From Singulisphaera sp. (lineage in GTDB: Bacteria > Planctomycetota > Planctomycetia > Isosphaerales > Isosphaeraceae), in NCBI GenBank assembly GCA_027451445.1, contig DAIDJG010000020.1, forward strand, positions 1 to 64,000: 64,000 bases of DNA, read 5' to 3'. Under the pieces are notes generated by a model, which was not told where the DNA came from, made no database searches, and worked only from the letters and a program-made list of their open reading frames with translations. Below, in pieces: positions 1,381-12,522 of the stretch. Made by a program: the position numbers and the translations under genes. Position 1 is the first letter of the stretch. Each line of letters starts with the position of its first letter.

Positions 1381-1539
1381 AACTGAGCCATTATCGCGGC
1401 CTCAGCGATCCACCCTTCCAAGGGGATGCGAACTTGTGTCTCGCCCCAAGTGCCCTCAGCCCAAAGTGAAGGGCACTTGGGGCGAGACACAAGTGCGGAG
1501 TCGGGGTGGCTCAGTTCTGGCCGCGATAATGGCTCAGTT
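1381..1539. repeat. Nested palindromic repeat (MITE-like)
   Basis: Two inverted repeats are nested. The outer arms are 1381-1401 and 1519-1539 (AACTGAGCCATTATCGCGGCC and its complement, 21 bp, perfect). The inner arms are 1432-1456 and 1470-1494 (25 bp, perfect), separated by 13 bases. The roughly 160-bp unit encodes no convincing protein, and its symmetry fits a non-autonomous mobile repeat. A partial further copy of the right outer arm follows at about 1541-1551. Confidence 0.75.
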
Positions 1540-1628
1540 TCTGGCCGCGACCGACACAACGTTCCAAGCTTCACCTGAAGGCGTAGCGTGCGCGGTTTCG
1601 ACGGCGACGGAACGAGCGACACCTCCGG

Positions 1629-1889
1629 TTACGAAGAGACGGAGCCTCCTTGGTCACGGCCCGCTTGCTCGCAAGTGCCGTCGTCAAGCCTTGTCTCCGC
1701 AGTCGCCGAGAAGTAATCTTGAACAAGAGCAAGGACACGGGACGTGACCTCGGACGGTAGAGCGGGCCAGGCCTCCAACAACACCTTCAACTGGGGGTCA
1801 TTTCGCTCTGGGCACTGGCTGGTCACTGCCACTGCGTGGCCGGTTTCTCTTAAGTCCTTTAGTTCTTTACAGTTAGATCGTTCTGACTG
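1629..1889 (-). pseudogene. Remnant of an integrase-type C-terminal tail, opposite strand
   Basis: Reading leftward from the tRNA-derived repeat, the minus strand stays open to a stop at 1629. It encodes a stretch near 1750-1810 (LKVLLEAWPALP...VLALV) that matches in pattern the tail LVIDAWDALPEAVRAGIVAMV on the other side of the repeat. That W-x-x-LP pattern is, as I recall, common at the C-termini of planctomycete integrases. No catalytic domain or start lies upstream, so I read it as the decayed tail of another recombinase from an earlier insertion at this tRNA site. The assignment rests on a short motif only. Confidence 0.4.
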
Positions 1890-1938
1890 CGGAATCATAA
1901 TCCGCGTGTCGGGGGTTCGAGTCCCTCCGCCGCTATTT
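1890..1938 (+). other. Left attachment site (attL), 3' half of a CAU-anticodon tRNA gene
   Basis: These 49 bp are identical to 11956-12004. They hold the anticodon arm (GCGGA / ATCATAA loop with anticodon CAT / TCCGC), the T arm (GGGGG TTCGAGT CCCTC), the 3' acceptor strand CGCCGCT and discriminator A. A matching 5' acceptor (AGCGGCG) and D arm are absent upstream, so this is only a tRNA fragment. Tyrosine integrases commonly use tRNA 3' halves as attB. The CAU anticodon could mean Met or lysidine-modified Ile; I cannot tell which. Confidence 0.85.
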
Positions 1939-2315
1939 GCGAACAGCCCCGAACCACTCCGCAGAACCCCGCACATTTCAGCGGGTTACGTCAAATCGAC
2001 TCGGAGAATTGCAACCCCGCGAACCGCAGGGAACCGCAAGAAACCAAATCCTTCCGCGTCCTGACTGCTACCGCCAGTGCTACCGTTGCGTCAGTTGATG
2101 CGACGCATGAGAAGCCCGTCAAACCCGCTCCCGCGGCCCTATCCGACTCCAGTTTGAGTCTCGTAATCGACGCCTGGGACGCGCTTCCCGAGGCCGTTCG
2201 GGCCGGGATCGTAGCGATGGTCCGCGCGTCCACACCACCCGCTCCATCGACCGTTGACGGAATTGACGAAATCGACGAAAAGGCCCGGCAATCCCGGAAA
2301 GGGGGTGGCCGATGA
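1890..2315 (+). pseudogene. Displaced C-terminal part of the integrase (split at attP)
   Basis: From the first base of the left repeat this frame is open for 141 codons to TGA at 2313-2315. It reads the att sequence in exactly the frame used by the integrase through the right repeat (RNHNPRVGGSSPSAAI). It ends in LVIDAWDALPEAVRAGIVAMV followed by a charged tail. There is no start codon context of its own. Its stop overlaps the next gene's ATG as ATGA (2312-2315), typical of genuine coupled genes. In a circularised element the integrase would run 444 residues to attP plus these 141, giving 585. In the integrated state this part is cut off from its promoter and N-terminus. Confidence 0.7.
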
Positions 2316-2950
2316 CGTCACCAGGGCCACCCGCTTGGGCGCAGCAAGCCGGCGAGCCATCGCGCTGGTATGCGTGCTTCTGGCAGTATTACTGCCTTGC
2401 CGGGCCGGCCCGAACCCTCGAATCCGCCTGGCGCCGGTCACGCTCAACGGCAACAAGTAGCAGCATAGAGCAGCGCGCAAAGCCAACACGCCCGTCGGCC
2501 CATTTTTATGGCTTGGTCTCGGCCTGGCGATGGAGTGAGCGTGCCGCTGCCTACGATCGCGCCGACCGCGAGAAGCAGGCGCTCGCGCGCCGCGTCGCGA
2601 TTGAGGAAGCGAACACGCGCCATGCGATCCTGGCACGAGCAGCGTTCAACAAGACTGCGATGGCCATCAACGCCCTGAAGCCCGAGGCGCTCACCCCAGA
2701 TCAGGTCATCAGGCTTGGCGACTTCGCCATCCGCATGGAACGCCTCGCGCTGGGTCAGCCCCTCGTCACAGAGCGTCACGAGCACATCGGCGTGCCATGC
2801 TCCGGCCCTGCCGACGGGGTCGTTCATCAAAATTACGATCCGACGCCGGAGGACATCGCCAGGGTGCTGGAAATCCTACACGAGCACGGCGCGGTTGAAG
2901 AGCAAGCCCCCGCCCCAATCCCTTTGACAGGAGACGATCCCGATGTCTGA
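2312..2950 (+). CDS. Phage-like hypothetical protein, possibly terminase-small-subunit-like
   Basis: The 212-residue product has an N-terminal region rich in W, Y and A (residues 5-40), a segment SAWRWSERAAAYDRADREKQ near 70-90, and a helical region to about 150. The layout (short region, W..R..AYD motif, long helix) resembles phage-associated small-terminase or packaging-type proteins of planctomycetes and other bacteria, but I see no diagnostic motif. The ATG overlaps the upstream stop in ATGA and follows an AAAGGGGG ribosome binding site, so it was probably coupled to the integrase tail. It overlaps the next gene by 8 bp. Confidence 0.55.
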   Translation: MTSPGPPAWAQQAGEPSRWYACFWQYYCLAGPARTLESAWRRSRSTATSSSIEQRAKPTRPSAHFYGLVSAWRWSERAAAYDRADREKQALARRVAIEEANTRHAILARAAFNKTAMAINALKPEALTPDQVIRLGDFAIRMERLALGQPLVTERHEHIGVPCSGPADGVVHQNYDPTPEDIARVLEILHEHGAVEEQAPAPIPLTGDDPDV

Positions 2951-3362
2951 GCAGATTCTGACCGAGATGACGCCTGCAGAAGCCTCGGCCCTCACGGAAG
3001 CGGCCCGGAAGAACCCTCTGGCCGCCGTGGCGGCGATTCTCGCGGTGCTAGTCGCGAGACGGCACGAGCGCGGTTACAACCATACCGCCATCAAGTCCAT
3101 GATCCTTGGTGGCTTCTCCGATGAGGCCGTCTCAGACGCCGTGCAAGCGATCCTCCGGGACGTCATCTCGGCGATGCTCGAAGTCATCCCGCCACCGTCC
3201 GCGCTTATCGCCACCCCCGTCGCGCACGCGGACGAAAATGCCCACGTGCATACCGCCGCGCCTCAGCGTAGGAGGCCCAACAGCAAGCCCAAGTCGTCCA
3301 AAAGAATGCACCCCGGCCCTAGACCCAAAATCATGCGAAAACGTAAGCGTTCGAATCCGTAA
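2943..3362 (+). CDS. Small hypothetical protein with basic C-terminus
   Basis: Unrecognised 139-residue protein. The first two thirds are predicted helical and alanine-rich, with RGYNHTAIKSMILGGFSDEA near residues 40-60, which could be a small helix-turn-helix. The last 35 residues are very basic and proline-rich (RRRPNSKPKSSKR...), suggesting nucleic acid binding. A GACAGGAG ribosome binding site lies at a good distance before the ATG. It overlaps the preceding gene by 8 bp, so the two are probably co-translated. Confidence 0.55.
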   Translation: MSEQILTEMTPAEASALTEAARKNPLAAVAAILAVLVARRHERGYNHTAIKSMILGGFSDEAVSDAVQAILRDVISAMLEVIPPPSALIATPVAHADENAHVHTAAPQRRRPNSKPKSSKRMHPGPRPKIMRKRKRSNP

Positions 3363-3556
3363 CTATGTCTTCGATTGCGAGATGAGAGGCCGATGCTTAT
3401 GAACGAGTGCTCTTGTTCCGTTCTGACGGGTCGATCAAGTTCCAAGGATGAGACCTTCGCCAACCAACGCCTCCACCGCATACAGTGAAACGACCGCGTT
3501 CCAATCGGGAAGAACGAAGTCCGAGGCTTGCTGGCGTGAGTATGGGCTCACTCGGA

Positions 3557-4867
3557 TCATGATTCCTCATTGTTCATGATATCCTTAGCCCACTGCATCA
3601 TGTCCTTGGCCCACTGCGCGGCTTCGGGACCGTCGAGGACGTCAGCTATCTCCGTCAGGTCCGTCACGGTCCACTTGGCGCCTTCGCGGGTCTCGGAGAG
3701 TAGGGTCGCAACCTGGTCCACCACGTTGTCATCTTCGTCGGCGTCAAGCAATGGCCATTCGTCGGCCCTCTGCATGGCCTGAAGCAGCTCTAGCGCTGAC
3801 TCAAGTTCCCGCGACGCCGCCCGCAACGTCTTCACGGCGACCTCAAGATTTTCCGGAGACAACTCCATGCGCTTGAGCTTGGGCTTCGCGGGCTGGTTCG
3901 CTGGTCGACCCGACCGGGGCAGGTTCTTCTGGGTGACGGACAGTGGGGCCGGCCCCAGGCCCTCTGGCCCGAAGGGATGCTCACCGTCGAGGTCTGGCAA
4001 ATCGCCCACGCCTAGAACGCGGCCTAAACGATCTAAGGTAAAGACTTCTCGAGTCCACTTATCATTCGGGTCGTACGGGCCATGAATTGACCCATAGCAT
4101 CCTTTGGAATGAACTTTGTGATGGAGGTCTGACACTACCCAGTGGACGTAGACCAGATGGTCCTCTGGGTCAATTCGCTTTACGGTTCCAATTGCACGAA
4201 TTTCGATATTAGGGTGTGTGCTTATCTTCTTAATCGCGATGCGGTCGCCCGGCCGAATGCGATTTCTTCGTCTGGTGAACTGCGGTTGGTCTGCGTCCTC
4301 CCAGCCAAGAAGCCAGTAGCCTTTCTGTACGAACTCCTCGTATTGATCCTCTCGCCCACCCCACATTGCCCCTACAACCCAGTATTGAGGGGCGATCGCA
4401 GATTCGGCCCATTCGGGCCAGTCTTGGGCGGTTGCTGCTCGGCGTATGATGAGTAATCCTTCGGGGCTGAACGGCATGAAATAGCCTTGTCGAATCTGCC
4501 CGCGTGATACAATCGGCCCATCCTCGATTTCTAATTCGCCAAGCTCTTCGATGATCTCGCTCTTGAGTATGGGAGGATTAAGTTCAAAGTATTCGGCTTT
4601 GAAGCTATAACCCACTCTCTCTGAGCCCCCGTAGGGGCCCAAGTCGACTTTGCTTTTGACCGCCCTTGTCACCGCGCGACTGAGAGCAACGACACTCTGC
4701 CAACGACCAGACCGGTAGTGGACAGTGACATCGCCGGCGCGAACGTCTCTGACCATGCGCCGGAACTTCATCCCCCTTTCGGTCTGTTCGACATCCGAGC
4801 AAACCAGGCCAGCGCGATGCTCTTCGTCCCAGCATCGTGTTTGGTTGCACCACCAGATTCGTGGCAT
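3557..4867 (-). CDS. Protein with two EVE/PUA-like domains (modified-base reader-like)
   Basis: The 436-residue product starts at ATG 4867, chosen because AAGGGG sits 8 nt upstream; an ATG at 4900 is less well placed. Residues about 1-70 (RIWWCNQTRCWDEE...GDVTVHYRSG) look like the PUA/EVE fold often found fused to McrB-type GTPases. Residues about 160-270 (QYWVVGAMWGG...GYWLLGWED...RPGDRIAIKK) look like a second EVE-like domain. The C-terminal third is charged, probably helical, and carries no nuclease or NTPase motif. EVE domains bind modified bases in DNA or RNA and occur in type IV restriction and other defence proteins. Here it stands alone on the minus strand between plus-strand core genes, so a cargo defence or regulatory role is inferred. 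Its base composition looks more AT-rich than the flanks. Confidence 0.6.
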   Translation of the reverse strand: MPRIWWCNQTRCWDEEHRAGLVCSDVEQTERGMKFRRMVRDVRAGDVTVHYRSGRWQSVVALSRAVTRAVKSKVDLGPYGGSERVGYSFKAEYFELNPPILKSEIIEELGELEIEDGPIVSRGQIRQGYFMPFSPEGLLIIRRAATAQDWPEWAESAIAPQYWVVGAMWGGREDQYEEFVQKGYWLLGWEDADQPQFTRRRNRIRPGDRIAIKKISTHPNIEIRAIGTVKRIDPEDHLVYVHWVVSDLHHKVHSKGCYGSIHGPYDPNDKWTREVFTLDRLGRVLGVGDLPDLDGEHPFGPEGLGPAPLSVTQKNLPRSGRPANQPAKPKLKRMELSPENLEVAVKTLRAASRELESALELLQAMQRADEWPLLDADEDDNVVDQVATLLSETREGAKWTVTDLTEIADVLDGPEAAQWAKDMMQWAKDIMNNEES

Positions 4868-5011
4868 TGAGGAAACCCCTTCGCGCTTCTGCCATCCCAC
4901 GACAAGGCCAAGGTCCCGGCCCAGCGAGTGTTACCGGTTGCTTTGGCGCTAACATGCGCCCGTCGCACGAGGAACATGGAAAGCAGCGTCCAACGGATGT
5001 TCGGCACCCTG

Positions 5012-5060
5012 AAAAAAAAGTCGCCCCCACGCAGGCCACAACTCCCGCGTGAGGGCGAAG
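5012..5060 (-). terminator. Minus-strand intrinsic terminator
   Basis: On the minus strand TCGCCCTCACGC pairs with GCGTGGGGGCGA, followed directly by TTTTTTTT (plus strand A-tract 5012-5019). It lies about 90 bp downstream of the ribbon-helix-helix gene and would separate it from the EVE-like gene. Confidence 0.75.
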
Positions 5061-5151
5061 ACGGGGCAGAACCCCGATCCAGTTTTGGCGTGGTTGTGGG
5101 CACGCTCGATATGGAGAGTACCCACGCACGGATGTCGATGCAAGGGGCCGG

Positions 5152-5388
5152 TTAACGCTTTGGGGCTGTGACCAAGTAGCCGCGCTCGCGAGCATAAGAC
5201 ACAAGCGCCCGGTCGATCAGATCATTGAGCGAAGGGGATCGATCGAAACTCGCGAGTGCTTCCACCCACGACTTCCATTCGGGCGTGCCTCGGATCATGA
5301 GGACCGCCGAGCGAACGCGCGATTCCTCTGCTTTCGGCTCCCCCTTGCCCGCGCCCTTCTTTGGCCTTGCCATTAATCCAGCACCCAC
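5152..5388 (-). CDS. Ribbon-helix-helix (CopG/Arc-like) DNA-binding protein
   Basis: A basic N-terminus (ARPKKGAGKGEPK) precedes a short strand-like segment (SRVRSAVLMIRG) and two helices (WKSWVEALASFDRS, LNDLIDRALVSYARER), the layout of a ribbon-helix-helix dimer that inserts a beta strand in the DNA major groove. The start is GTG at 5388 because CCGGGAGGG sits 8 nt before it; the internal ATG at 5373 has no such site. That gives 78 residues. It is transcribed divergently from the gene at 5662 and may regulate the shared control region and itself. It could also be the antitoxin half of a pair, but no toxin is adjacent. Confidence 0.65.
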   Translation of the reverse strand: MGAGLMARPKKGAGKGEPKAEESRVRSAVLMIRGTPEWKSWVEALASFDRSPSLNDLIDRALVSYARERGYLVTAPKR

Positions 5389-5661
5389 GGTTATGCCCTC
5401 CCGGTGACAATTTGGTCCGCCCACGTGTTCACCGGGATTATACACGAGTGGCTATCCAATGGCAACCTTAAGAGTATCGGCATCGCGAGAGAACTGTCTA
5501 CAAAAAATCAGGGACATTGTGAACTACCTCCTTGCTTAATGGATATCCACTGGATACAATTTGGATGTCGGGTGAGGGAATGGCCCTGACCCAACAAAAA
5601 CGGCCCGCCTCGGTGGTTCAGACCGAGACGAGCCAAGACCAGGTGCTAAGGACACCCAGTC
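5389..5661. promoter_or_regulatory. Divergent control region with TGGAT repeats
   Basis: This AT-richer gap separates the minus-strand RHH gene from the plus-strand gene at 5662. It contains CTATCCAATGG near 5449-5459 and a cluster of TGGAT at about 5540-5565 (TGGATATCCACTGGATAC and TTTGGATG), partly palindromic, which could be the RHH operator. A hairpin CTCGGT...ACCGAG lies at about 5611-5630. Operator function is inferred from position and repetition. Confidence 0.4.
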
Positions 5662-5916
5662 ATGACCACCGTCTTCGATTCGACCCGCCCAGTCAAGCCA
5701 TCCGCGCGCAAGCCCTTCGCCGCTGGTCTCGCCCGGACCCCGGCCCGCCAGCCGCGCTTCGAGCCCACCCCCGACGACTTGGCATGGGCCGCCGCGAACC
5801 TGAACGCCAACACGACGCATTACGAAGTGATCGGCCAGTCTGATGAGGCGATCGACTTCGCTTACGGGTGTGCTCTGGCCACAGCCCGCCACGAGGCCGG
5901 CTTCCGCTGTTACTGA
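5662..5916 (+). CDS. Small hypothetical protein
   Basis: Unrecognised 84-residue protein. The N-terminal 40 residues are basic and proline-rich; the C-terminal half (DDLAWAAANLNANTTHYEVI...) is probably helical and ends with GFRCY. A ribosome binding site AAGGA lies about 11 nt before the ATG, after a hairpin that could attenuate expression. It is the first plus-strand gene after the divergent control region. No known domain is evident. Confidence 0.5.
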   Translation: MTTVFDSTRPVKPSARKPFAAGLARTPARQPRFEPTPDDLAWAAANLNANTTHYEVIGQSDEAIDFAYGCALATARHEAGFRCY

Positions 5917-6367
5917 ACCGCGATGCGTCCCACAAGCCCCTGGCAACGTGCTGGGGGCCTTCCCGGATGGCGACGAAGCGAGGGTTCAGACCGATCCCGA
6001 CAGCTACCAACACTGACGACTTCTCCGCCCGCGTGACCGACCTTCCCACGTAGCGACCCGGCAACGACTCGACCGCACACGCGACGTGTCCCACAACCGC
6101 GACGAAGAGGTCCGACGGGAACAGGACTGGGCCGAGTACCGGCCTGGTCCGACCGGATGTTCCGGCGGATCAACCGCAACGAGCCCGGACCGCAACCCGA
6201 CTGAGTAGCGCGGGGCCATGGACGTCCCCGAAGGCATCTCGTTTTGATACGATGATTGCGGGTCGGCGTAGTGGTGGCCACCGCTGCGTCAAGCGGCCGG
6301 GGTCGCGTGCCAGGTTCTCCTTACTGGTGCGCGGCCCGGGTCGGCCCACTTCAAGGAGACTCCTACC
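5917..6367 (+). other. Apparent non-coding or decayed stretch inside the element
   Basis: No reading frame here has a convincing start, ribosome binding site or protein-like composition on either strand; the open frames are arginine/proline-rich GC artefacts. The end of the stretch supplies the ribosome binding site AAGGAGA (about 6353-6359) for the next gene. I see no RNA gene. Confidence 0.4.
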
Positions 6368-6715
6368 ATGTCTGCGCAACCCTCGCGCATGCCCCTTTCC
6401 ACAATCCGGCTCGAAGACGGGCGAACCGTCCGGATCTTCGCACCAACGGATGACCTGTGGATCGAACTCAATCAGATGACCAGATCATCAGAGCAGAGAC
6501 AGCCCTTTGGCGTGCTTCGCACAATCGTGTCTCATTGCACTGATGCGACCTTCGAGGGCTCGCCCAAAGACCTCGGTCGGCTCGTTCTCGCGCTTCTCAA
6601 GACTTGGGACAACCAAGATCAGATGTTTATTCTGATGTGGTGGCGCAAGAAAGCCAGATTGGAGCTTGAGCAGTTCTACGCGGCGTACAGCGAGTCGAGG
6701 CCCTGGTGGGTCTAG
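6368..6715 (+). CDS. Hypothetical protein, 115 residues
   Basis: Unrecognised protein. An N-terminal part with beta-strand character (STIRLEDGRTVRIFAPTDDLW) precedes a helical C-terminal part with several tryptophans (TWDNQDQMFILMWWRKK). Both the strong ribosome binding site (AAGGAGACTCCTACC before ATG) and protein-like composition support it. It overlaps the next reading frame by 10 bp, so the two may be coupled. The strand-rich start recalls small phage tail or assembly proteins, but nothing specific can be claimed. Confidence 0.6.
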   Translation: MSAQPSRMPLSTIRLEDGRTVRIFAPTDDLWIELNQMTRSSEQRQPFGVLRTIVSHCTDATFEGSPKDLGRLVLALLKTWDNQDQMFILMWWRKKARLELEQFYAAYSESRPWWV

Positions 6716-7050
6716 GCCTCGTTCCGCACCCAGAGCTTACGGAACAGATCGACCGGATAGCCGAACCGCCGCTGGCCCCCAATGGACAGGGGGCGACTCC
6801 GGGCCAGCGAACGCCTGAGAACCCGGACGAAGTCCTTGACTTTGTGACCCTGGATCAAGCTGCCGCCATGGTCAACCGATCGAAGCGAACCCTCGAACGT
6901 TACAAGACGAAAGGGACGCTACCCGTCCCGGCCGTCGAAGGGGGAGGCGGACGAGCCGACCGATGGAACTGGAAGACGATGGGCCCCTGGCTGGAGAAAG
7001 AATTCGGCATCAAACTACCCACGACCTTCCCAGCGAACCACCGAACCTGA
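6706..7050 (+). CDS. MerR-like / excisionase-type HTH protein
   Basis: The 114-residue product has a poorly conserved N-terminus and then a winged-helix core at about residues 45-95: DFVTLDQAAAMVNRSKRTL, followed by ERYKTKGTLPVP, the pattern of helix-turn-helix proteins that read DNA with a MerR-type fold (excisionases, phage regulators). The start used is GTG at 6706, overlapping the preceding stop; an internal start nearer residue 45 cannot be excluded. It could act as a recombination directionality factor for the integrase or as a transcription regulator of the downstream replication genes. Confidence 0.55.
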   Translation: MGLGLVPHPELTEQIDRIAEPPLAPNGQGATPGQRTPENPDEVLDFVTLDQAAAMVNRSKRTLERYKTKGTLPVPAVEGGGGRADRWNWKTMGPWLEKEFGIKLPTTFPANHRT

Positions 7051-7148
7051 CCGACATCTAACCGACAACCGCCGACAACCGCACGCAAGCGCCCCCCTCA
7101 CTCTTACGATCGCCCGCGTGGATCCCATATCTCTACGGAGACACGCGG

Positions 7149-7370
7149 ATGATAGAGCCCGTACTGATCGAGCCCGACGCCCTCTACGATGACGCCGCGC
7201 TGCGCCACGCCATCGGGCTGAGCCCCGCGCGCCTGGCCGCTGCCCGGCGATCGGGAAGCCTGCGGCACACCCGTCAGGGCAAACGCACCCTCTACAAGGG
7301 CGCATGGGTCCTGGAGTGGTTGGAGAGCGAGGCTCGCCCCCAACTTAACCTGGAGGGGGGTGATGCATGA
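7149..7370 (+). CDS. Mini helix-turn-helix protein (first of three)
   Basis: The 73-residue product is a single compact domain: LYDDAALRHAIGLSPARLAAARR (helix-turn-helix) and GSLRHTRQGKRTLYKGAWVLEWL (wing and last helix). The pattern of a short recognition helix followed by R..GK..LY..WVLEWL is that of excisionase or MerR-like DNA-binding domains. A GGAG site precedes the ATG. Its stop overlaps the next ATG (ATGA at 7367), which begins a chain of four overlapping genes ending with the RepA-like ATPase. Confidence 0.6.
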   Translation: MIEPVLIEPDALYDDAALRHAIGLSPARLAAARRSGSLRHTRQGKRTLYKGAWVLEWLESEARPQLNLEGGDA

Positions 7371-7693
7371 CCCAGAGCACCCGAAGCACGCGACTCACGC
7401 TCGCATTGGGAGCGGACCAGCCAGTCGCGCCCGCCGGACCCCCTGATCTATCCCCCGGCGTCGTCCACCTGTCGGAGCCCCTGGCCCGCGTGGCGATCCG
7501 CCTGGCGCTGGGCGGCGTGGAGCCCCTGCTCGAGCTCGACGACTGGACGACGATCCTGGCGTGCTCGCGCCGCCAAGTCGAGACGATGCGCGCGGCCGGA
7601 AAGTTGCCCCCACCCGATCTCCACATCGGCAAGCTCCCGCGCTGGCGGGCCCCGACGGCTCGCGAGTGGCTGGCGAAGGGGGGTGAGCGATGA
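7367..7693 (+). CDS. Mini helix-turn-helix protein (second of three)
   Basis: The 108-residue product has a variable N-terminal half and a C-terminal DNA-binding domain (LLELDDWTTILACSRRQVETM, then RAAGKLPPPDLHIGKLPRWR, TAREWL), again MerR/excisionase-like with the tyrosine-free recognition pattern found in phage regulators. It overlaps the genes on both sides by 4 bp (ATGA at 7367 and 7690), indicating translational coupling. It is not a duplicate of its neighbours at sequence level, though the fold is probably shared. Confidence 0.6.
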   Translation: MTQSTRSTRLTLALGADQPVAPAGPPDLSPGVVHLSEPLARVAIRLALGGVEPLLELDDWTTILACSRRQVETMRAAGKLPPPDLHIGKLPRWRAPTAREWLAKGGER

Positions 7694-7893
7694 GGGAGCC
7701 CACACGCCCCCCCGCCGCCATGCTCGTGCCGCCCCGTGTCGCGTGCGAGATGAGCAGCCTCGACGCTCGCGAGCTGGACCGACTCATCCGGTCAGGCGCG
7801 GTCCGCGTCGAGCGCGTCGACGGCAAGCTGCTCGTGGCCCTCGACGATGTCGAGCAGGCCACCGGCCAGAGCCGAAAGGAAGTAGACCAGTGA
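7690..7893 (+). CDS. Mini DNA-binding-like protein (third of three)
   Basis: The 67-residue product contains AAMLVPPRVACEMSSLDARE, then LDRLIRSGAVRVERVDGKLL, a pattern compatible with a small winged helix in which VERVDGKLLVALDD forms the wing. The stop TGA overlaps the GTG start of the ATPase (GTGA at 7890-7893), and the AAAGGAAG inside this gene is the ribosome binding site of the ATPase. Function is unproven; the shared fold with the two preceding genes is inference. Confidence 0.5.
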   Translation: MREPTRPPAAMLVPPRVACEMSSLDARELDRLIRSGAVRVERVDGKLLVALDDVEQATGQSRKEVDQ

Positions 7894-9140
7894 TACCCTG
7901 CCCCTCTGACTGTTACGTGCTGGCCCGGCTCCTGGCGGGCCAGCACGTGAACGGCGAACTGGCCCAAGTGAGTGAGGCGTGGCGGCCTGCGGTCGATTAT
8001 CTTGTCGAGCTTCGATCTGACGCCCGCGGCGCGGCCTTCGAAGCGATGTGTGCGGCGCCCGGAATCGACCACGATGCGGTGTTAAAGGCGGTTGCGCAAA
8101 TCGACCCCACGGGGCCGGTGCCCGAAGCGCGCGTGCTCCGCCGGTCCGCTCACCTGGGGGATCTCGCCGTCAGCTCGTCGTCCACGCGCTTCGCGTGGCC
8201 CTTCTACATCGTCAGAGGCCACTTCAACCTGCTGTCGTCCGACCCCAAAGTCGGGAAGACCCACATCATGCTCGACCTGGCTCGGCGGCTCTACTTCCGC
8301 GAGCCCTGGCCTGATGGGCATGATCCGACGTTTCCAGCCGGCACGGTGACGCTCTGGGTTTGCGGCGACCGTCACCAGGATGAGCTACGGGAGCGCGCCA
8401 CGGCGTTCGGGTTGCCCGGGGAAGCGGTCAAACTCAACTCGCTGCCCGACAACCCGTACGGTGGCTGGGACCTTGACGAACAAGCCAACATCGACCTCAT
8501 GCGGGACCTGATCATCAGCGAGCGGCCCGGACTGGTGTTCATTGATACGGTTTGGCGAGCGACCCGCCGGCAGCTCCGCCGCGAGGAAGAAGTAAACGCC
8601 CTACTCAATCCCCTGGTGACGATCGCGCAAGACACCGACACGGCCATCATCGGTGCCATGCACCTCTCGAAAGACGGTGACACCCTCGGGAGGCGGCTCG
8701 AAGGGCTTGCGCGGGCGATCCTGAAGCTCTACCGGCCCGATCCTGAAGGGCAACCGAACCGAAGGAAGCTCACCGTAATCGGCAATTTCCGGGAACCCCC
8801 GCCGCTCGGTCTGACGATGGGCGACACCGGATGCGAGTACGACTCCGAACCGCCCTCCGAACCGGCCACCAACAAGGGCGGCAGGCCAGCCGCGGAATGC
8901 ATCAAAGCGCAAGAGTTCATCGTTAAGCACCTGAAGGAGCGGAACGACCGGAAAGGAATCGACCTTATCAACGAATGGACGCAATTAATGGGCGAAGCCA
9001 AGGGCACGATCTTCAATGCCCGCGCGGCGCTCGTGAGTGCGGGTCGTCTGACCGTGGACGACTCCAAGAAACCCCAAATATGGCATCTGGCGGATACGGG
9101 GTCAGAAACGGTCAAGAACCCGGTTTCTGACCGCTTCTGA
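7890..9140 (+). CDS. RepA-like/RecA-fold ATPase (AAA_25 type)
   Basis: Predicted replication ATPase or helicase loader. The GTG start at 7890 is set by the overlapping GTGA and an AAAGGAAG site 7 nt upstream; 416 residues. The Walker A variant SSDPKVGKTHIMLDLARR lies at about residues 112-129, and the Walker B region GLVFIDTVWRA at about 213-223. A polar segment TDTAIIGAMHLSKDGD follows, as in hexameric RepA/DnaB-superfamily ATPases that couple nucleotide hydrolysis to origin opening. The C-terminal 80 residues are probably a winged helix. It precedes a primase gene and a repeated 11-mer lies around its 3' end, so a role in starting replication of the excised element fits. Confidence 0.75.
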   Translation: MIPCPSDCYVLARLLAGQHVNGELAQVSEAWRPAVDYLVELRSDARGAAFEAMCAAPGIDHDAVLKAVAQIDPTGPVPEARVLRRSAHLGDLAVSSSSTRFAWPFYIVRGHFNLLSSDPKVGKTHIMLDLARRLYFREPWPDGHDPTFPAGTVTLWVCGDRHQDELRERATAFGLPGEAVKLNSLPDNPYGGWDLDEQANIDLMRDLIISERPGLVFIDTVWRATRRQLRREEEVNALLNPLVTIAQDTDTAIIGAMHLSKDGDTLGRRLEGLARAILKLYRPDPEGQPNRRKLTVIGNFREPPPLGLTMGDTGCEYDSEPPSEPATNKGGRPAAECIKAQEFIVKHLKERNDRKGIDLINEWTQLMGEAKGTIFNARAALVSAGRLTVDDSKKPQIWHLADTGSETVKNPVSDRF

Positions 9141-9601
9141 CCTCCAAACTTAAAGTCAAGAACCTCCGACCCCTATACCCCCCGAGGTTGTTGACCTGAA
9201 TCCCGGACTCTCAGGCATGACCCAAAGCGCCCAAAACTCAAAGTCTGACAACGGCCGAATTGACTGGTCAGCCGTCAAGGGTGCGCTCGATATGGCGACG
9301 GTCGCGACCCGCGTGCTCGGCACGGCACAGGGACGTAAGGGCGGCAAGGGCCGGCTCTGGTGGCGTTGCCCACTCGGGACCCACGACGACAGAAACCCGT
9401 CGTTCACTATCATCACAGGTGAACAATATTTGCATTGCTTTGGATGCGGTTGGCACGGCGACATGGTTGCATTGGTTCAGGCGCTGAACCCATCAATGAG
9501 TTTTCCTGACGCGGTGAGTTACCTCGTGGGAGCGCCGGCCCCCAAAGTCAGGTCAAGAACCTCTGGCGTGTATGGTTTCGGTGACCGCGAGGTTTCTGAC
9601 C
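9100..9601. repeat. Candidate iterons (11-bp motif, about eight copies)
   Basis: Consensus GGTCARRAACC or its complement GGTTYYTGACC. Exact or near copies: 9100-9110 (GGTCAGAAACG), 9110-9120 (exact), 9122-9132 (complement, exact), 9132-9142 (CGCTTCTGACC), 9154-9164 (aGTCAAGAACC), 9186-9196 (GGTTGTTGACC), 9551-9561 (exact), 9591-9601 (complement, exact). Six lie within 100 bp at the end of the ATPase gene and in the gap before the primase. Clustered short repeats beside a RepA-like gene are typical of iteron origins; function is inferred. Confidence 0.55.
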
Positions 9602-10374
9602 CGCCATCGGGGCTTCCCTATTCCGACGCTCTCGCCCTGACAGAAGAGTCGGAGCGGCGTCTCTGGACACCCGATGGGGCCGGCGCCCTCGATCAGCTCC
9701 ACGGCCGCGGGCTGAGTGATGCGACGATCCGCGCGGCCCGGCTCGGGTTCACGGCCCGCGTCTCGTACCCTACCCGGACCGGGGGGACGGCCCGCGCGTC
9801 GGGCATCGTAATCCCGTGGTTCGACGGCGACCGCCTCGCCCTGGTCAAGATCCGACAGGACCGCCGAAAGCCCCGGTATGCGGAGTGTCACCGGACCCCG
9901 GCTCACGTGACGTGCTATCCCAGCCTGGCGGTCATCCGGCAGGGGGCGCCGCTGGTCGTGACCGAGGGAGAGCTTGACGCTCTCTTTCTCGGCCAAGAAG
10001 TCGCCGGGCTGGCGTGCGTGATCACCTTGGGGAGCGCTTCGAACAAGCTCACGGCGCGGTTATTGACCGCGTGCCTGGTGTGCCCGTCGTGGTTCCTCGC
10101 CACGGACAACGACCCGGCCGGCGATAGGGCTGCCGCTGACTGGCCGGCGCGAGCAGTCCGGGGCCGGCCGCCGAGCCACCACAAGGATTGGACCGAGGCG
10201 CGGCAGGCCCCCCACCCGATCAATCTGCGCCGCTGGTGGAGCGACGTCTTGAGCGGCAATCTCCGGCCCGCGCTCTACACCTGGGATGAGCTGTCGAGTT
10301 GGCGCTGGGGACCCGCCATCGATAACCACGAAGGGGGAATCGTCATCGAGTGGCCCACGTCGGTACACGCTTGA
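9217..10374 (+). CDS. CHC2 zinc-finger / Toprim DNA primase-like protein
   Basis: Predicted primase that makes RNA primers for the element's replication. The 385-residue product opens with a CHC2-type zinc-binding domain: a C..H pair (CPLGTHDDRN, about residues 50-60) and CFGCGWHGD (about 74-82). A Toprim domain follows: VTEGELDALF (glutamate motif, about 248) and ATDNDPAGDRAA (D-x-D motif, about 295-305). Length is shorter than housekeeping DnaG (about 600) and typical of plasmid or phage primases without helicase-binding domains. The gene lies 76 bp after the ATPase across the iteron-like cluster. Confidence 0.85.
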   Translation: MTQSAQNSKSDNGRIDWSAVKGALDMATVATRVLGTAQGRKGGKGRLWWRCPLGTHDDRNPSFTIITGEQYLHCFGCGWHGDMVALVQALNPSMSFPDAVSYLVGAPAPKVRSRTSGVYGFGDREVSDPPSGLPYSDALALTEESERRLWTPDGAGALDQLHGRGLSDATIRAARLGFTARVSYPTRTGGTARASGIVIPWFDGDRLALVKIRQDRRKPRYAECHRTPAHVTCYPSLAVIRQGAPLVVTEGELDALFLGQEVAGLACVITLGSASNKLTARLLTACLVCPSWFLATDNDPAGDRAAADWPARAVRGRPPSHHKDWTEARQAPHPINLRRWWSDVLSGNLRPALYTWDELSSWRWGPAIDNHEGGIVIEWPTSVHA

Positions 10375-10405
10375 CTCTGAGCCAACTATGGGGTAGGATG
10401 TGGGT

Positions 10406-10612
10406 ATGAGCGACGAACCCTTCAGCGAACAGTTGCGCCGAGCGCTCAACGAGTCGGGGTTGACCCGTTACCGCATCGCCAAGGAACTCGGGGTAAGCCA
10501 AGCGACCCTCAGCAAGTTCATGTCGGGACAGCGCGGGTTGTCGATGGCGGTTGTGGACCGGGTGTGCGGCCTGTTGGGGTTGATCATCACGAAGAAGCCT
10601 GAGAGCAAGTAG
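10406..10612 (+). CDS. XRE-family (Cro/CI-type) HTH regulator
   Basis: The 68-residue protein is essentially one helix-turn-helix: SEQLRRALNESGLTRYRIAK, then ELGVSQATLSKFMSGQRGLS, then AVVDRVCGLLGL. The recognition helix is QATLSKFMSG, as in Cro/CI and antitoxin-like regulators. A start at GTG 10400 is also in frame; ATG 10406 is preferred because TAGGA sits 8 nt before it. It lies 11 bp before the integrase, suggesting that the two are co-transcribed and that this protein may control integrase expression. That is inference. Confidence 0.75.
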   Translation: MSDEPFSEQLRRALNESGLTRYRIAKELGVSQATLSKFMSGQRGLSMAVVDRVCGLLGLIITKKPESK

Positions 10613-10623
10613 GGAGGGGACCG

Positions 10624-12021
10624 GTGGCGAGCATCTTCAAGAAGGACAAGCGTCGCAAGGGCGCCCCGTGGTACATCGACTACTTCGACGAGAACGACGT
10701 GCGCCAGCGGGAGAAGGGGTGCCCGGATCGAGCGGCGACCGAGCAGATTGCCCGCAAGCTGGAGACCGACGTTGAGCTGCGCCGGCGCGGTGTTATCGAC
10801 GTCAAGGATGAGCGCCGGGCCGAGGCCAACCTCAGGCCGCTCACGGAACACTTCGACGCCTTCCAAGCCGCCCTCGTGGACCGGGGGAACACGGCCAAGC
10901 ACGTTGACCTCTACGTTGAACGGGCCCGGCGTGTGGCCGCCCTCGTTCTGGGCGCGGCGCTGCCGGAGATCGACCCACCGAAGAAGAAGACGAAGAAGGT
11001 CGAGCGCGATGCGGCCGCCCTGCTGGTGACCTCCGTGCTGAAGACGGGACGTCTTTCCGACATGACCCTGGAGGCGGTCCAGAAAGCGTTGTCGGTTCTG
11101 AAGGATAGCGGTCGATCTCTCGAGACTTGCAACCATCATCGGGCCGCCATCCGGGGGTTTAGCAAGTGGGCCTGGGAGACGGGCCGCACGTCAGCGCACG
11201 TGCTTCTCGGTGTGACTGGTTTCAACGCCAAAGAGGATCGGCGGCACGATCGCCGCACCCTTGGTGTGGACGAGTTGCGTAAGCTCATCAAGACGGCCGA
11301 GCGTGGTCCCGACTACCGCCAGATGACCGGACCCGACCGGGCGCTCTGCTACCGGCTCGCCGTGGCCACGGGCTTGCGGTTCTCGGAAATCCAGACGATC
11401 ACGCCGCGCTCGTTCGATTGGAAGGCGGACCCCGCGACGGTGACGGTAGCCGCCGGCTACACGAAGAACGGTGAACCAGCGACGCTGCCCCTGGCTCCCG
11501 ACCTGGTCACCGACCTGCGTTCCCGCGTGCTCGACATGTCCCAAGACGCTCCGGTGTTCGTCCTGCCGGACCGCGGGGCCACGATGCTTCAGATCGACCT
11601 TGAGGCCGCCGAAATCCCGTACTGCGATGAGTCGGGCCAGTTCTTCGACTTCCACTCGCTACGCTGCCAGACCGCCACGCTGGCGGATGCGGCCGGTAAC
11701 TCGCCGCGCGTGGTTCAGAAGCTCATGCGTCACTCGACGCTGGAACTCACCGGGCGCTACACACGTCCGCGCGCCGTTGACGTGGAACGCGCCGCCCTGA
11801 CCCTGCCCACGCTTCGCCCGATGGCGTCGAACCGTGAGGCCCGCTCCGCCACCGGAACCGACGATTCGGCCCCGAGTGCTACCGCCAGTGCTACCGACGA
11901 GGACGACTTGCCGCGCAAGTCCAATGAGCGTAACATCCTTGTGGCGGTCGCTACACGGAATCATAATCCGCGTGTCGGGGGTTCGAGTCCCTCCGCCGCT
12001 ATTTCTCAACTTCCAAGTTGA
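10624..12021 (+). CDS. int: Tyrosine recombinase / integrase (integrated, shortened form)
   Basis: Catalyses integration and excision at the tRNA att site. The start is GTG at 10624 after AGGGAGGGG. N-terminal arm-binding-type region 1-70 (WYIDYFDENDVRQREKG), core-binding domain about 70-200, catalytic domain about 210-390. Catalytic residues visible: R252 (TGLRFSEI), K281 (YTKNGE), H344 and R347 (FHSLRC), H370 (MRHSTLE) and the tyrosine Y379 (TGRYTRPR). From residue 445 onwards the codons are the att sequence itself; the last four residues (QLPS) and the stop come from flanking chromosome. The frame through att equals the open frame of 1890-2315, so the circular form would carry 141 residues instead of 21 here. 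Confidence 0.92.
   Translation: MASIFKKDKRRKGAPWYIDYFDENDVRQREKGCPDRAATEQIARKLETDVELRRRGVIDVKDERRAEANLRPLTEHFDAFQAALVDRGNTAKHVDLYVERARRVAALVLGAALPEIDPPKKKTKKVERDAAALLVTSVLKTGRLSDMTLEAVQKALSVLKDSGRSLETCNHHRAAIRGFSKWAWETGRTSAHVLLGVTGFNAKEDRRHDRRTLGVDELRKLIKTAERGPDYRQMTGPDRALCYRLAVATGLRFSEIQTITPRSFDWKADPATVTVAAGYTKNGEPATLPLAPDLVTDLRSRVLDMSQDAPVFVLPDRGATMLQIDLEAAEIPYCDESGQFFDFHSLRCQTATLADAAGNSPRVVQKLMRHSTLELTGRYTRPRAVDVERAALTLPTLRPMASNREARSATGTDDSAPSATASATDEDDLPRKSNERNILVAVATRNHNPRVGGSSPSAAISQLPS
11956..12004 (+). other. Right attachment site (attR) within the integrase 3' end
   Basis: This is the second perfect copy of the 49-bp tRNA 3'-half repeat (anticodon arm with CAT, T arm, acceptor strand). 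It encodes integrase residues 445-460 and part of 461. No 5' tRNA half is present upstream on this side either. Confidence 0.88.
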
Positions 12022-12118
12022 TCACGACTTACGCGTAACCCGTCGCATTCACATCTACAAGCCGGTGCCCCACGCTAGGGCACGAAAACGGCGAATTAAC
12101 GGCAGTAATCCGGCAACA

Positions 12119-12193
12119 GAAAAGCCAAGGGTCAAGCTTGGTTTTTTGTTTTTCAAGAAAAGCCAAGGGTCAAGCTTGGTTTTTTGTTTTTCA
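12119..12193 (+). terminator. Tandemly duplicated intrinsic terminators
   Basis: A 38-bp unit is repeated head to tail at 12119-12156 and 12157-12193 (last base altered). Each holds a stem CCAAG...CTTGG followed by TTTTTTGTTTTT on the plus strand, a Rho-independent terminator shape. They lie about 100 bp after the integrase, just outside attR, and would stop transcripts leaving the element or host transcripts entering on this strand. Exact duplication suggests a recent event. Confidence 0.7.
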
Positions 12194-12522
12194 TGGACTA
12201 CGGCTTGAGAACATCCCCGTCGGGGCTTTCGTCTGCGATGGCTGGCGAGTCCGAAGGCTTCACTGGCGCATCCGAGCGGCCTGCTGTCAGCGACGGATGG
12301 ATTTCCAAACCGGTCAGGCGCGACAACTGACTTATGAGAGAGGATGGCTGATCGCGCACTTGGACAGAAATCCTCCACCCGACTACTTCGGTCCGTCGAA
12401 CCAAACACTCGAGCAGCAACGCGAGGATGATCGCCGGGCTGTCGTTGAGAAAACTCGCGGAATCGTTCACCACACGAACGCGTCGACGAGTTTCGTTCGA
12501 GCAGCCCAACTCCCTTGGGTCG
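12194..12522. other. Gap without recognisable gene
   Basis: Open frames on both strands lack ribosome binding sites and protein-like composition. I see nothing else of note between the terminators and the LexA-like gene. Confidence 0.35.

Follow-up and report, generated by a model that had tools for sequence, protein, structure and literature searches.

A probable iteron origin of replication behind an AAA_25 ATPase gene in a 10-kb integrative element of Singulisphaera sp.

The window analyzed here, a 64-kb (64,000-nucleotide) stretch of Singulisphaera sp. DNA, contains a 49-bp exact direct repeat (1890-1938 and 11956-12004) that bounds an element of 10,066 bp. The left copy (attL, 1890..1938, + strand) is the 3' half of tRNA-Met(CAT) and the right copy is attR (11956..12004, +), both delimited by exact repeat matching. 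Neither copy is a whole tRNA, and the genome has its intact tRNA-Met(CAT) elsewhere, on a different contig. A tyrosine integrase gene (10624..12021, +; Phage_integrase, E 9.2e-13) reads through attR. The element also encodes an AAA_25 (RecA-fold) ATPase, a candidate initiator helicase (7890..9140, +; AAA_25, E 7.7e-16; presumed GTG start), followed by a DnaG-type primase with Zn ribbon (Zn_ribbon_DnaG) and Toprim_2 matches in Pfam (9217..10374, +). Three genes code for HTH-type proteins: a Cro/C1-type HTH regulator (10406..10612, +; HTH_31, E 6.6e-10; HTH_3, E 3.2e-9), a small HTH_17-like protein (7149..7370, +; HTH_17, E 6.1e-4, below the Pfam cut-off), and a small AlpA/HTH_17-like DNA-binding protein (7367..7693, +; phrog_597 "DNA binding protein", HTH_17 only at E 0.074) that has relatives in 13 other elements.

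The 212-aa product of 2312..2950 (+) resembles a terminase small subunit (phrog_6299, E 1.8e-7). It had no Pfam match at 0.001 and no NCBIfam support, and phmmer found no homologue in the ORFs near the primase of 28 other loci, a good number of which are truncated. A 447-aa cargo protein (3557-4900, -) matched nothing in Pfam, PADLOC or NCBIfam, and the remaining genes gave no informative match in these collections. Given its integrase, att repeats, terminase-small-subunit-like gene and overall gene set, the element is plausibly a phage satellite. A tblastn search of 50,697 phage records with the ATPase returned no match. A tRNA lies near the element in seven relatives, and in three of the seven the locus contains a second copy of the tRNA end (47-70 bp): G041 at tRNA-Cys, G039 at the same tRNA-Met and G023 at tRNA-Arg. 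The G039 element (L228, 45-10196), from another genus, has the same tRNA-Met att sequence but a DUF3987 ATPase and a different iteron. Close to the window element on its left, at 1380-1560, a long hairpin (CTTGTGTCTCGCCCCAAGTGCCCT...AGGGCACTTGGGGCGAGACACAAG) sits in a larger imperfect repeat with CTGAGCCATTATCGCGGCC and looks like a small non-autonomous insertion. Beyond the right end, AAAAGCCAAGGGTCAAGCTTGGTTTTTTGTTTTTC is duplicated in tandem, nearly identically, at 12120-12195.

The ATPase matches phrog_19 (DnaB-like, E 7.6e-6), and a PDB profile search returned RadA, with DnaB at E 0.08. The full-length structural model is poor (pTM 0.42). Residues 334-400 (8889..9089, +) are nevertheless predicted to fold as a winged helix in the order helix-helix-helix-beta-beta; the three helices and the hairpin have pLDDT values of 76-90 over residues 341-400, and the domain modeled alone has a mean pLDDT of 69.6. 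A structure search with the winged-helix model returned nothing significant from the PDB (best E 0.78). Among relatives, the C-terminal domain of L080 matches HTH_IclR and TrmB above the Pfam cut-off, and L081 (HTH_IclR), L070 and L078 (both LexA_DNA_bind) have sub-threshold winged-helix matches. The window ATPase therefore probably ends in a winged helix. Its predicted recognition helix is the third, KGTIFNARAALVS (residues 371-383; 9000..9038, +), which covaries with the repeats described below.

The first-pass annotation reported about eight copies of the 11-mer GGTCARRAACC in both orientations, six of them within 100 bp around the 3' end of the ATPase gene and the gap before the primase. 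This count held: allowing two mismatches, six units lie in 9100-9196 and two within the primase gene. The placement was also correct, with the refinement that the array begins inside the last ATPase codons (stop codon 9138-9140; intergenic gap 9141-9216) and that its units form inverted pairs. Only four sites in the whole window are exact, and all belong to this cluster (9110+, 9122-, 9551+ and 9591-); in the shuffled control that the annotation had proposed, the mean was 0.16 and four or more sites were reached in 0 of 100 shuffles. With up to one mismatch, 16 sites were found against a chance mean of 4.31, nine of them in 9100-10068, the only part of the element (1890-12004) that contains any. 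Genome-wide (10.9 Mb), the 37 sites are no enrichment over the 27 found for the reversed pattern, so the 11-mer belongs to this element. The one-mismatch site at 9843 was left out of the unit count because it is conserved primase coding sequence (GGTCAAGATCC is shared by five relatives' primases), and the one at 10058 is probably due to chance.

Read by eye, the first cluster comprises two nested inverted pairs and one separate pair. The nested pairs (GGTCAGAAAC GGTCAAGAACC / GGTTTCTGACC GCTTCTGACC) are formed by units at 9100..9110 (+, one mismatch), 9110..9120 (+, exact), 9122..9132 (-, exact) and 9133..9143 (-); the last has two mismatches, was read by eye and is part of the scored inverted repeat. 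In the gap, AGTCAAGAACC ... GGTTGTTGACC (9154..9164, +, and 9186..9196, -, each found with one mismatch) flank the spacer CCCCTATACCCCCC (9170..9183, no strand, read by eye). A third pair, in the primase linker, has exact units at 9551..9561 (+) and 9591..9601 (-), in agreement with the earlier statement that copies partly overlap coding DNA and that two fall within the primase gene. The similarity between the window's own gap and linker exceeded that of all 50 cross pairs.

A search of 45 genomes from the family to which the window belongs (contigs named as Isosphaeraceae, Paludisphaera or Planctomycetes MAGs) identified about 27 true primase relatives, and two more (G178 and G092) came from 397 genomes of the wider class. 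Paludisphaera soli is one of the carriers of a relative. The gene upstream of the relatives' primase encodes either an AAA_25 ATPase or a protein of DUF3987, a family still "of unknown function" in Pfam. Almost none of these relatives carry GGTCARRAACC. Because the repeat sequence differs among them, their clusters escape a search with this 11-mer, and nine-mer counting was too blunt. We therefore scored the best inverted and the best tandem 8-11-bp repeat in the 260 bp before each primase, with 60 shuffles per locus, for 26 of the 29 loci (G030b, G015b and G015c were without upstream sequence). The inverted-repeat score exceeded all 60 shuffles in 19 of the 26 loci and tied in G026; the tandem score exceeded all shuffles in three more (G026, G029 and G178). 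Significant repeats thus precede the primase in 22 of 26 loci, in both ATPase classes and mostly with a motif of their own, such as GAAACCCTTGAAACCCTGG in G019, CTCAAGAACTCAAGAAC in G013b, GACGAAATTGACGCAATT in G030a and GGACAAAACCC in G006. Four loci are without them: G021 has no ATPase, the primase of G010b is truncated, G013a lies at a contig edge, and in G018 the inverted-repeat score was 11.0 and the shuffle maximum 12.0. Conservation of the cluster among relatives, proposed earlier as a check, was thus found for its place, nearly every relative with both genes having a cluster there, but not for its sequence; the Chloroflexi-type loci C733 and C397e have ATPase and primase yet no repeats behind the ATPase. 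The annotation had named two outcomes as refuting, a chance expectation similar to the count and related elements with both genes but no repeats, and its reading survived both tests. Distant primase relatives from Anaerolineae and one Deltaproteobacterium show the same order of ATPase, 8-9-bp repeats and primase, for example ATGACGAAATGACGAAATGAC in L072 and L074-L077, with repeats scored without a shuffle control. Patescibacteria relatives in the same list had low repeat scores.

A C-TA-G centre (C3+ W2-6 G2+) was found in 14 of 35 gaps and in 67 of 1100 control windows, a count that rests on gaps partly selected for repeats because repeat-less loci had been dropped. This 35-gap set is without G010b, G013a, G021, C673, C733, C397e and C560 (no ATPase, truncated, or no repeats seen) and without L071 and L080, duplicates of C398 and C399. 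In the window, the regular expression matches another place, and CCCCTATACCCCCC is the likely counterpart of the relatives' centre. We rejected a family-wide skeleton, TCAGAACC: it occurs in 20 of the 35 gaps with up to one mismatch (5.7 expected), and the best k-mers of single shuffles reach 17 to 21. Sharing of the motif between gap and primase linker was likewise rejected as a general rule, with own similarity above all 50 cross pairs in only 6 of 23 loci (the window, G019, G178, G003, G018 and G031) and the repeat motif itself in only the window, G019 and G178; G028 was borderline (2 of 50). By eye, the primase linkers of L020 and L024 contain an inverted repeat, GTATCACTG..CAGTGATAGAGCAGTGATAC, unlike their own gap motif.

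To follow the repeats independently of the primase, we collected further ATPases by profile search. Eleven had a usable 3' flank (L277 and L289 had none), and their repeats were compared with 40 shuffles each, dinucleotide in one batch and mononucleotide in the other. The repeat score exceeded all 40 shuffles behind six of the eleven (L267, L278, L280, L281, L282 and L287). The L279 score did not, yet its flank reads GAGGTCAAGGTTA..ACCCCTATAGGG..TAACCTTGACC, also given as GAGGTCAAGG..ACCCCTATAGGG. No repeats were found behind L290, a fragment, or behind the larger proteins L283, L286 and L291, for which the frame, picked by motif in the mononucleotide batch, is possibly not the matched one. 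The genomes of L279, L280, L281 and L287 each have a single primase-profile match with E values of 3e-27 to 9.5e-21, typical of host DnaG, whereas the listed element primases match at 1e-43 or better; in the L279 genome this match sits on a contig other than that of the ATPase. Conversely, primases without an ATPase upstream (G021 and C560) have no repeats. C673 also lacks repeats and, by eye, a winged helix. It is thus the ATPase, and not the primase, that the repeats accompany.

The repeat motif also changes with the C-terminal domain of the ATPase. The window and G026 share the helix AKGT[IL]FNA and the motif GGTCAAGAACC at a core identity of 42%, and G006 and G017a share the helix KTFWRAVDEM and the motif GGACARAAYCC at 43%. 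In contrast, motifs differ between ATPases whose cores are alike but whose helices are not (G040-G017a, core identity 66%; G018-G017a, 58%). The helix and unit strings of this first comparison were picked after seeing the data, and we rely on a partial Mantel test that compares the whole C-terminal 95 residues with unread gap sequence. C517, L069, G017b and G015d, for which no C-terminal domain was read, were left out, as was L092 from the set of all AAA_25 loci. Given the core, motif and winged helix were correlated in the AAA_25 class (partial r 0.30, p 0.021, n=12; 0.25, p 0.011, n=17) and in the DUF3987 class (0.51, p 0.0005, n=9; 0.45, p 0.0002, n=13). Given the winged helix, motif and core were not significantly correlated (0.11 and 0.15 for AAA_25, 0.03 and -0.26 for DUF3987). 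Several pairs of ATPases are mosaics, with core/winged-helix identities of 66/27, 60/17 and 72/37 per cent and, in the reverse sense, 35/61 and 44/59. In a held-out test with six ATPases, the element with the nearest helix ranked 8, 1, 3, 3, 1 and 12 of 17 by gap similarity. The support is weak, since L278, which gave one of these first ranks, is nearly a copy of G018. Together, these covariations suggest that the winged helix reads the repeats.

The repeats could instead be bound by the primase or by another protein of the element, which we regard as quite unlikely. Two units do lie inside the primase gene, and in the DUF3987 class primase similarity given the core strongly predicts the motif (partial r 0.83, n=9; 0.39, n=13), the winged helix given the primase giving 0.11 and 0.19, neither significant. 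Because the primase competes as a predictor there, the Mantel test does not settle the reader in that class. In the AAA_25 class, however, little is gained from the primase (0.22, p 0.08; 0.13, p 0.10), and the winged-helix correlation keeps its significance once the primase is accounted for (0.24, p 0.04; 0.25, p 0.009). The repeats behind ATPases found independently of the primase, and their absence before primases without an ATPase, speak for the ATPase as the reader.

Those same ATPases outside the primase set also argue against an operator that controls primase transcription and is bound by the Cro-like or the AlpA/HTH_17-like protein. Inverted 10-11-bp pairs upstream of a gene resemble repressor sites, and the element encodes both candidate proteins, but BLAST relatives of the Cro-like protein occur in only 8 other elements, compared with repeats in 22 of 26 loci. 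The recognition region of the HTH_17-like protein is nearly constant while the repeats differ in almost every element, and we rejected the AlpA/HTH_17-like protein as their reader on this ground. An operator is thus unlikely. That the inverted repeats act as RNA, by folding between the genes into a hairpin that terminates or attenuates transcription, appears very improbable. Some loci have long perfect or near-perfect inverted repeats after the stop codon (22 bp in L280, for example), but in the window a search for terminator-like sites in 8900-9700 and an Rfam scan of 1500-12500 both came back empty, the second cluster falls within coding sequence, and the units of G029 and G178 are tandem direct repeats with little inverted symmetry.

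The feature is most likely an iteron origin, the kind of site proposed in the first-pass annotation. More specifically, we estimate a probability of about 0.72 that the cluster forms the iteron array of an origin belonging to the element itself, served by an AAA_25 initiator whose winged helix reads it, and that winged helix and array can be swapped as a pair. The ATPase encoded just upstream would be a RecA-fold helicase-like initiator whose C-terminal winged helix, judging from the covariation, binds the 9-10-bp units, which overlap the 3' end of the ATPase gene and extend beyond it. Several subunits may then assemble on the inverted pairs and open the DNA around the C/G-rich centre, where the TOPRIM primase encoded next would prime; the pair in the primase linker would form a second, optional binding cluster. 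The integrase would excise the element at the tRNA-Met half repeats, after which the element could, as the first-pass annotation proposed, copy itself as a circle. These model steps of assembly, melting, priming and excision are drawn by analogy from SaPI Rep and Cch2 and from PICI origins. Winged helix and iterons would change and swap together while the ATPase core stays, which would give each element a private origin. The driver of this diversification may be incompatibility or origin-targeting by rivals.

The RepA protein of plasmid RSF1010 is a hexameric AAA_25-type helicase with a RecA fold; the iterons of this plasmid, about 20 bp long, are bound by a separate RepC, and its primase belongs to another family. 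An AAA_25 helicase is found here by Pfam, but a RepB'-type primase and RepC with ~20-bp iterons are not: the element has Zn_ribbon_DnaG plus Toprim_2 and 9-10-bp units. RepA, RepB' and RepC of RSF1010 are three separate polypeptides, as mentioned in the available text of PMC4234260, whereas helicase and origin reader would here be one chain.

According to the accessible parts of PMC7581432, SaPI Rep and Cch2 bind iterons behind their own gene via a C-terminal domain, SaPIbov1 Rep being related to DUF927 proteins and SaPI5 Rep having a Primase_Cterm/D5-like helicase. The arrangement proposed here resembles the Rep-ori of SaPIs and PICIs, as far as it is described in the available text of PMC6092414 and PMC7581432, in its helicase-type initiator with a C-terminal domain that would read iterons directly behind the gene, and in its two iteron sets, adjacent primase and integrase with att. 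Some SaPIs and PICIs also carry terS, to which the terminase-small-subunit-like gene of the window may correspond. In the window, iterons lie directly 3' of the presumed initiator gene, where they would act as the origin, and the integrase and flanking att repeats are present. The initiator families of SaPIs and PICIs are not matched, since Pfam gives AAA_25 or DUF3987 only. Their origin centre is AT-rich, whereas the two sets here go with a C/G-rich one (CCCCTATACCCCCC in the window, C-TA-G in 14 of the 35 partly preselected gaps). Here the primase follows the origin, and SaPIs and PICIs are induced and packaged by helper phages, while no helper phage is known for this element. SCCmec Cch2 is similarly an oligomeric helicase whose C-terminal domain binds direct repeats behind its operon, but it is of the D5 type and has 5-nt iterons, and its origin is highly similar among the elements compared in the accessible sections of PMC7581432.

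In PLE of Vibrio cholerae, the RepA DNA-binding domain and the origin are exchanged, and an origin-directed phage nuclease that mimics RepA has been proposed as the driver (PMC8263062, available portion). It is possible, by analogy, that a similar pressure acts here. The likeness, a DNA-binding domain that covaries with the origin while the rest is conserved, is a shared way of working and not membership. PLE RepA is a RepA_N protein that is not a predicted helicase, with an N-terminal variable domain and iterons of ~30 bp (available text of PMC8263062 and PMC7145576), in contrast to the C-terminal winged helix on an ATPase, the 8-10-bp units and the spread over more than one phylum seen here. 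None of the window element proteins scanned had a RepA_N match. ORF904 of pRN1 also has a C-terminal winged helix, and the inverted repeat behind its gene is kept in shape and not in sequence; ORF904 differs in joining an archaeo-eukaryotic primase and an SF3 helicase in one protein and in having one large stem-loop and no iterons (PMC4234260, as far as accessible).

A broader proposal, to which we assign odds slightly short of even, is that AAA_25 and DUF3987 ATPases in elements of Planctomycetes and Chloroflexi generally carry a swappable winged helix that reads private 8-10-bp iterons behind its own gene, so that winged helix and origin would move and diversify as a single cassette. If so, both families would join the initiators that choose their own origin, and initiator/origin swapping of the PLE type would prove to be common practice among small integrative elements of at least two phyla. 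More than 20 matched winged-helix/iteron pairs would then be at hand for predicting and testing binding specificity and element compatibility, and a protein-DNA recognition code could be read from them, with helicase and origin reader united in one protein. The new point is a helicase-initiator origin in AAA_25/DUF3987, and what makes it interesting is how many matched pairs there are and how widely they occur. A literature search from which subscription papers were mostly absent found no description of AAA_25 or DUF3987 origins. Viral contigs contained only distant primases and one ATPase. The latter, L267, is an IMG/VR contig on which the ATPase relative is followed by inverted repeats of the GTACACTAGTACGGTTTA type, and origins of this kind may also travel in viral DNA.
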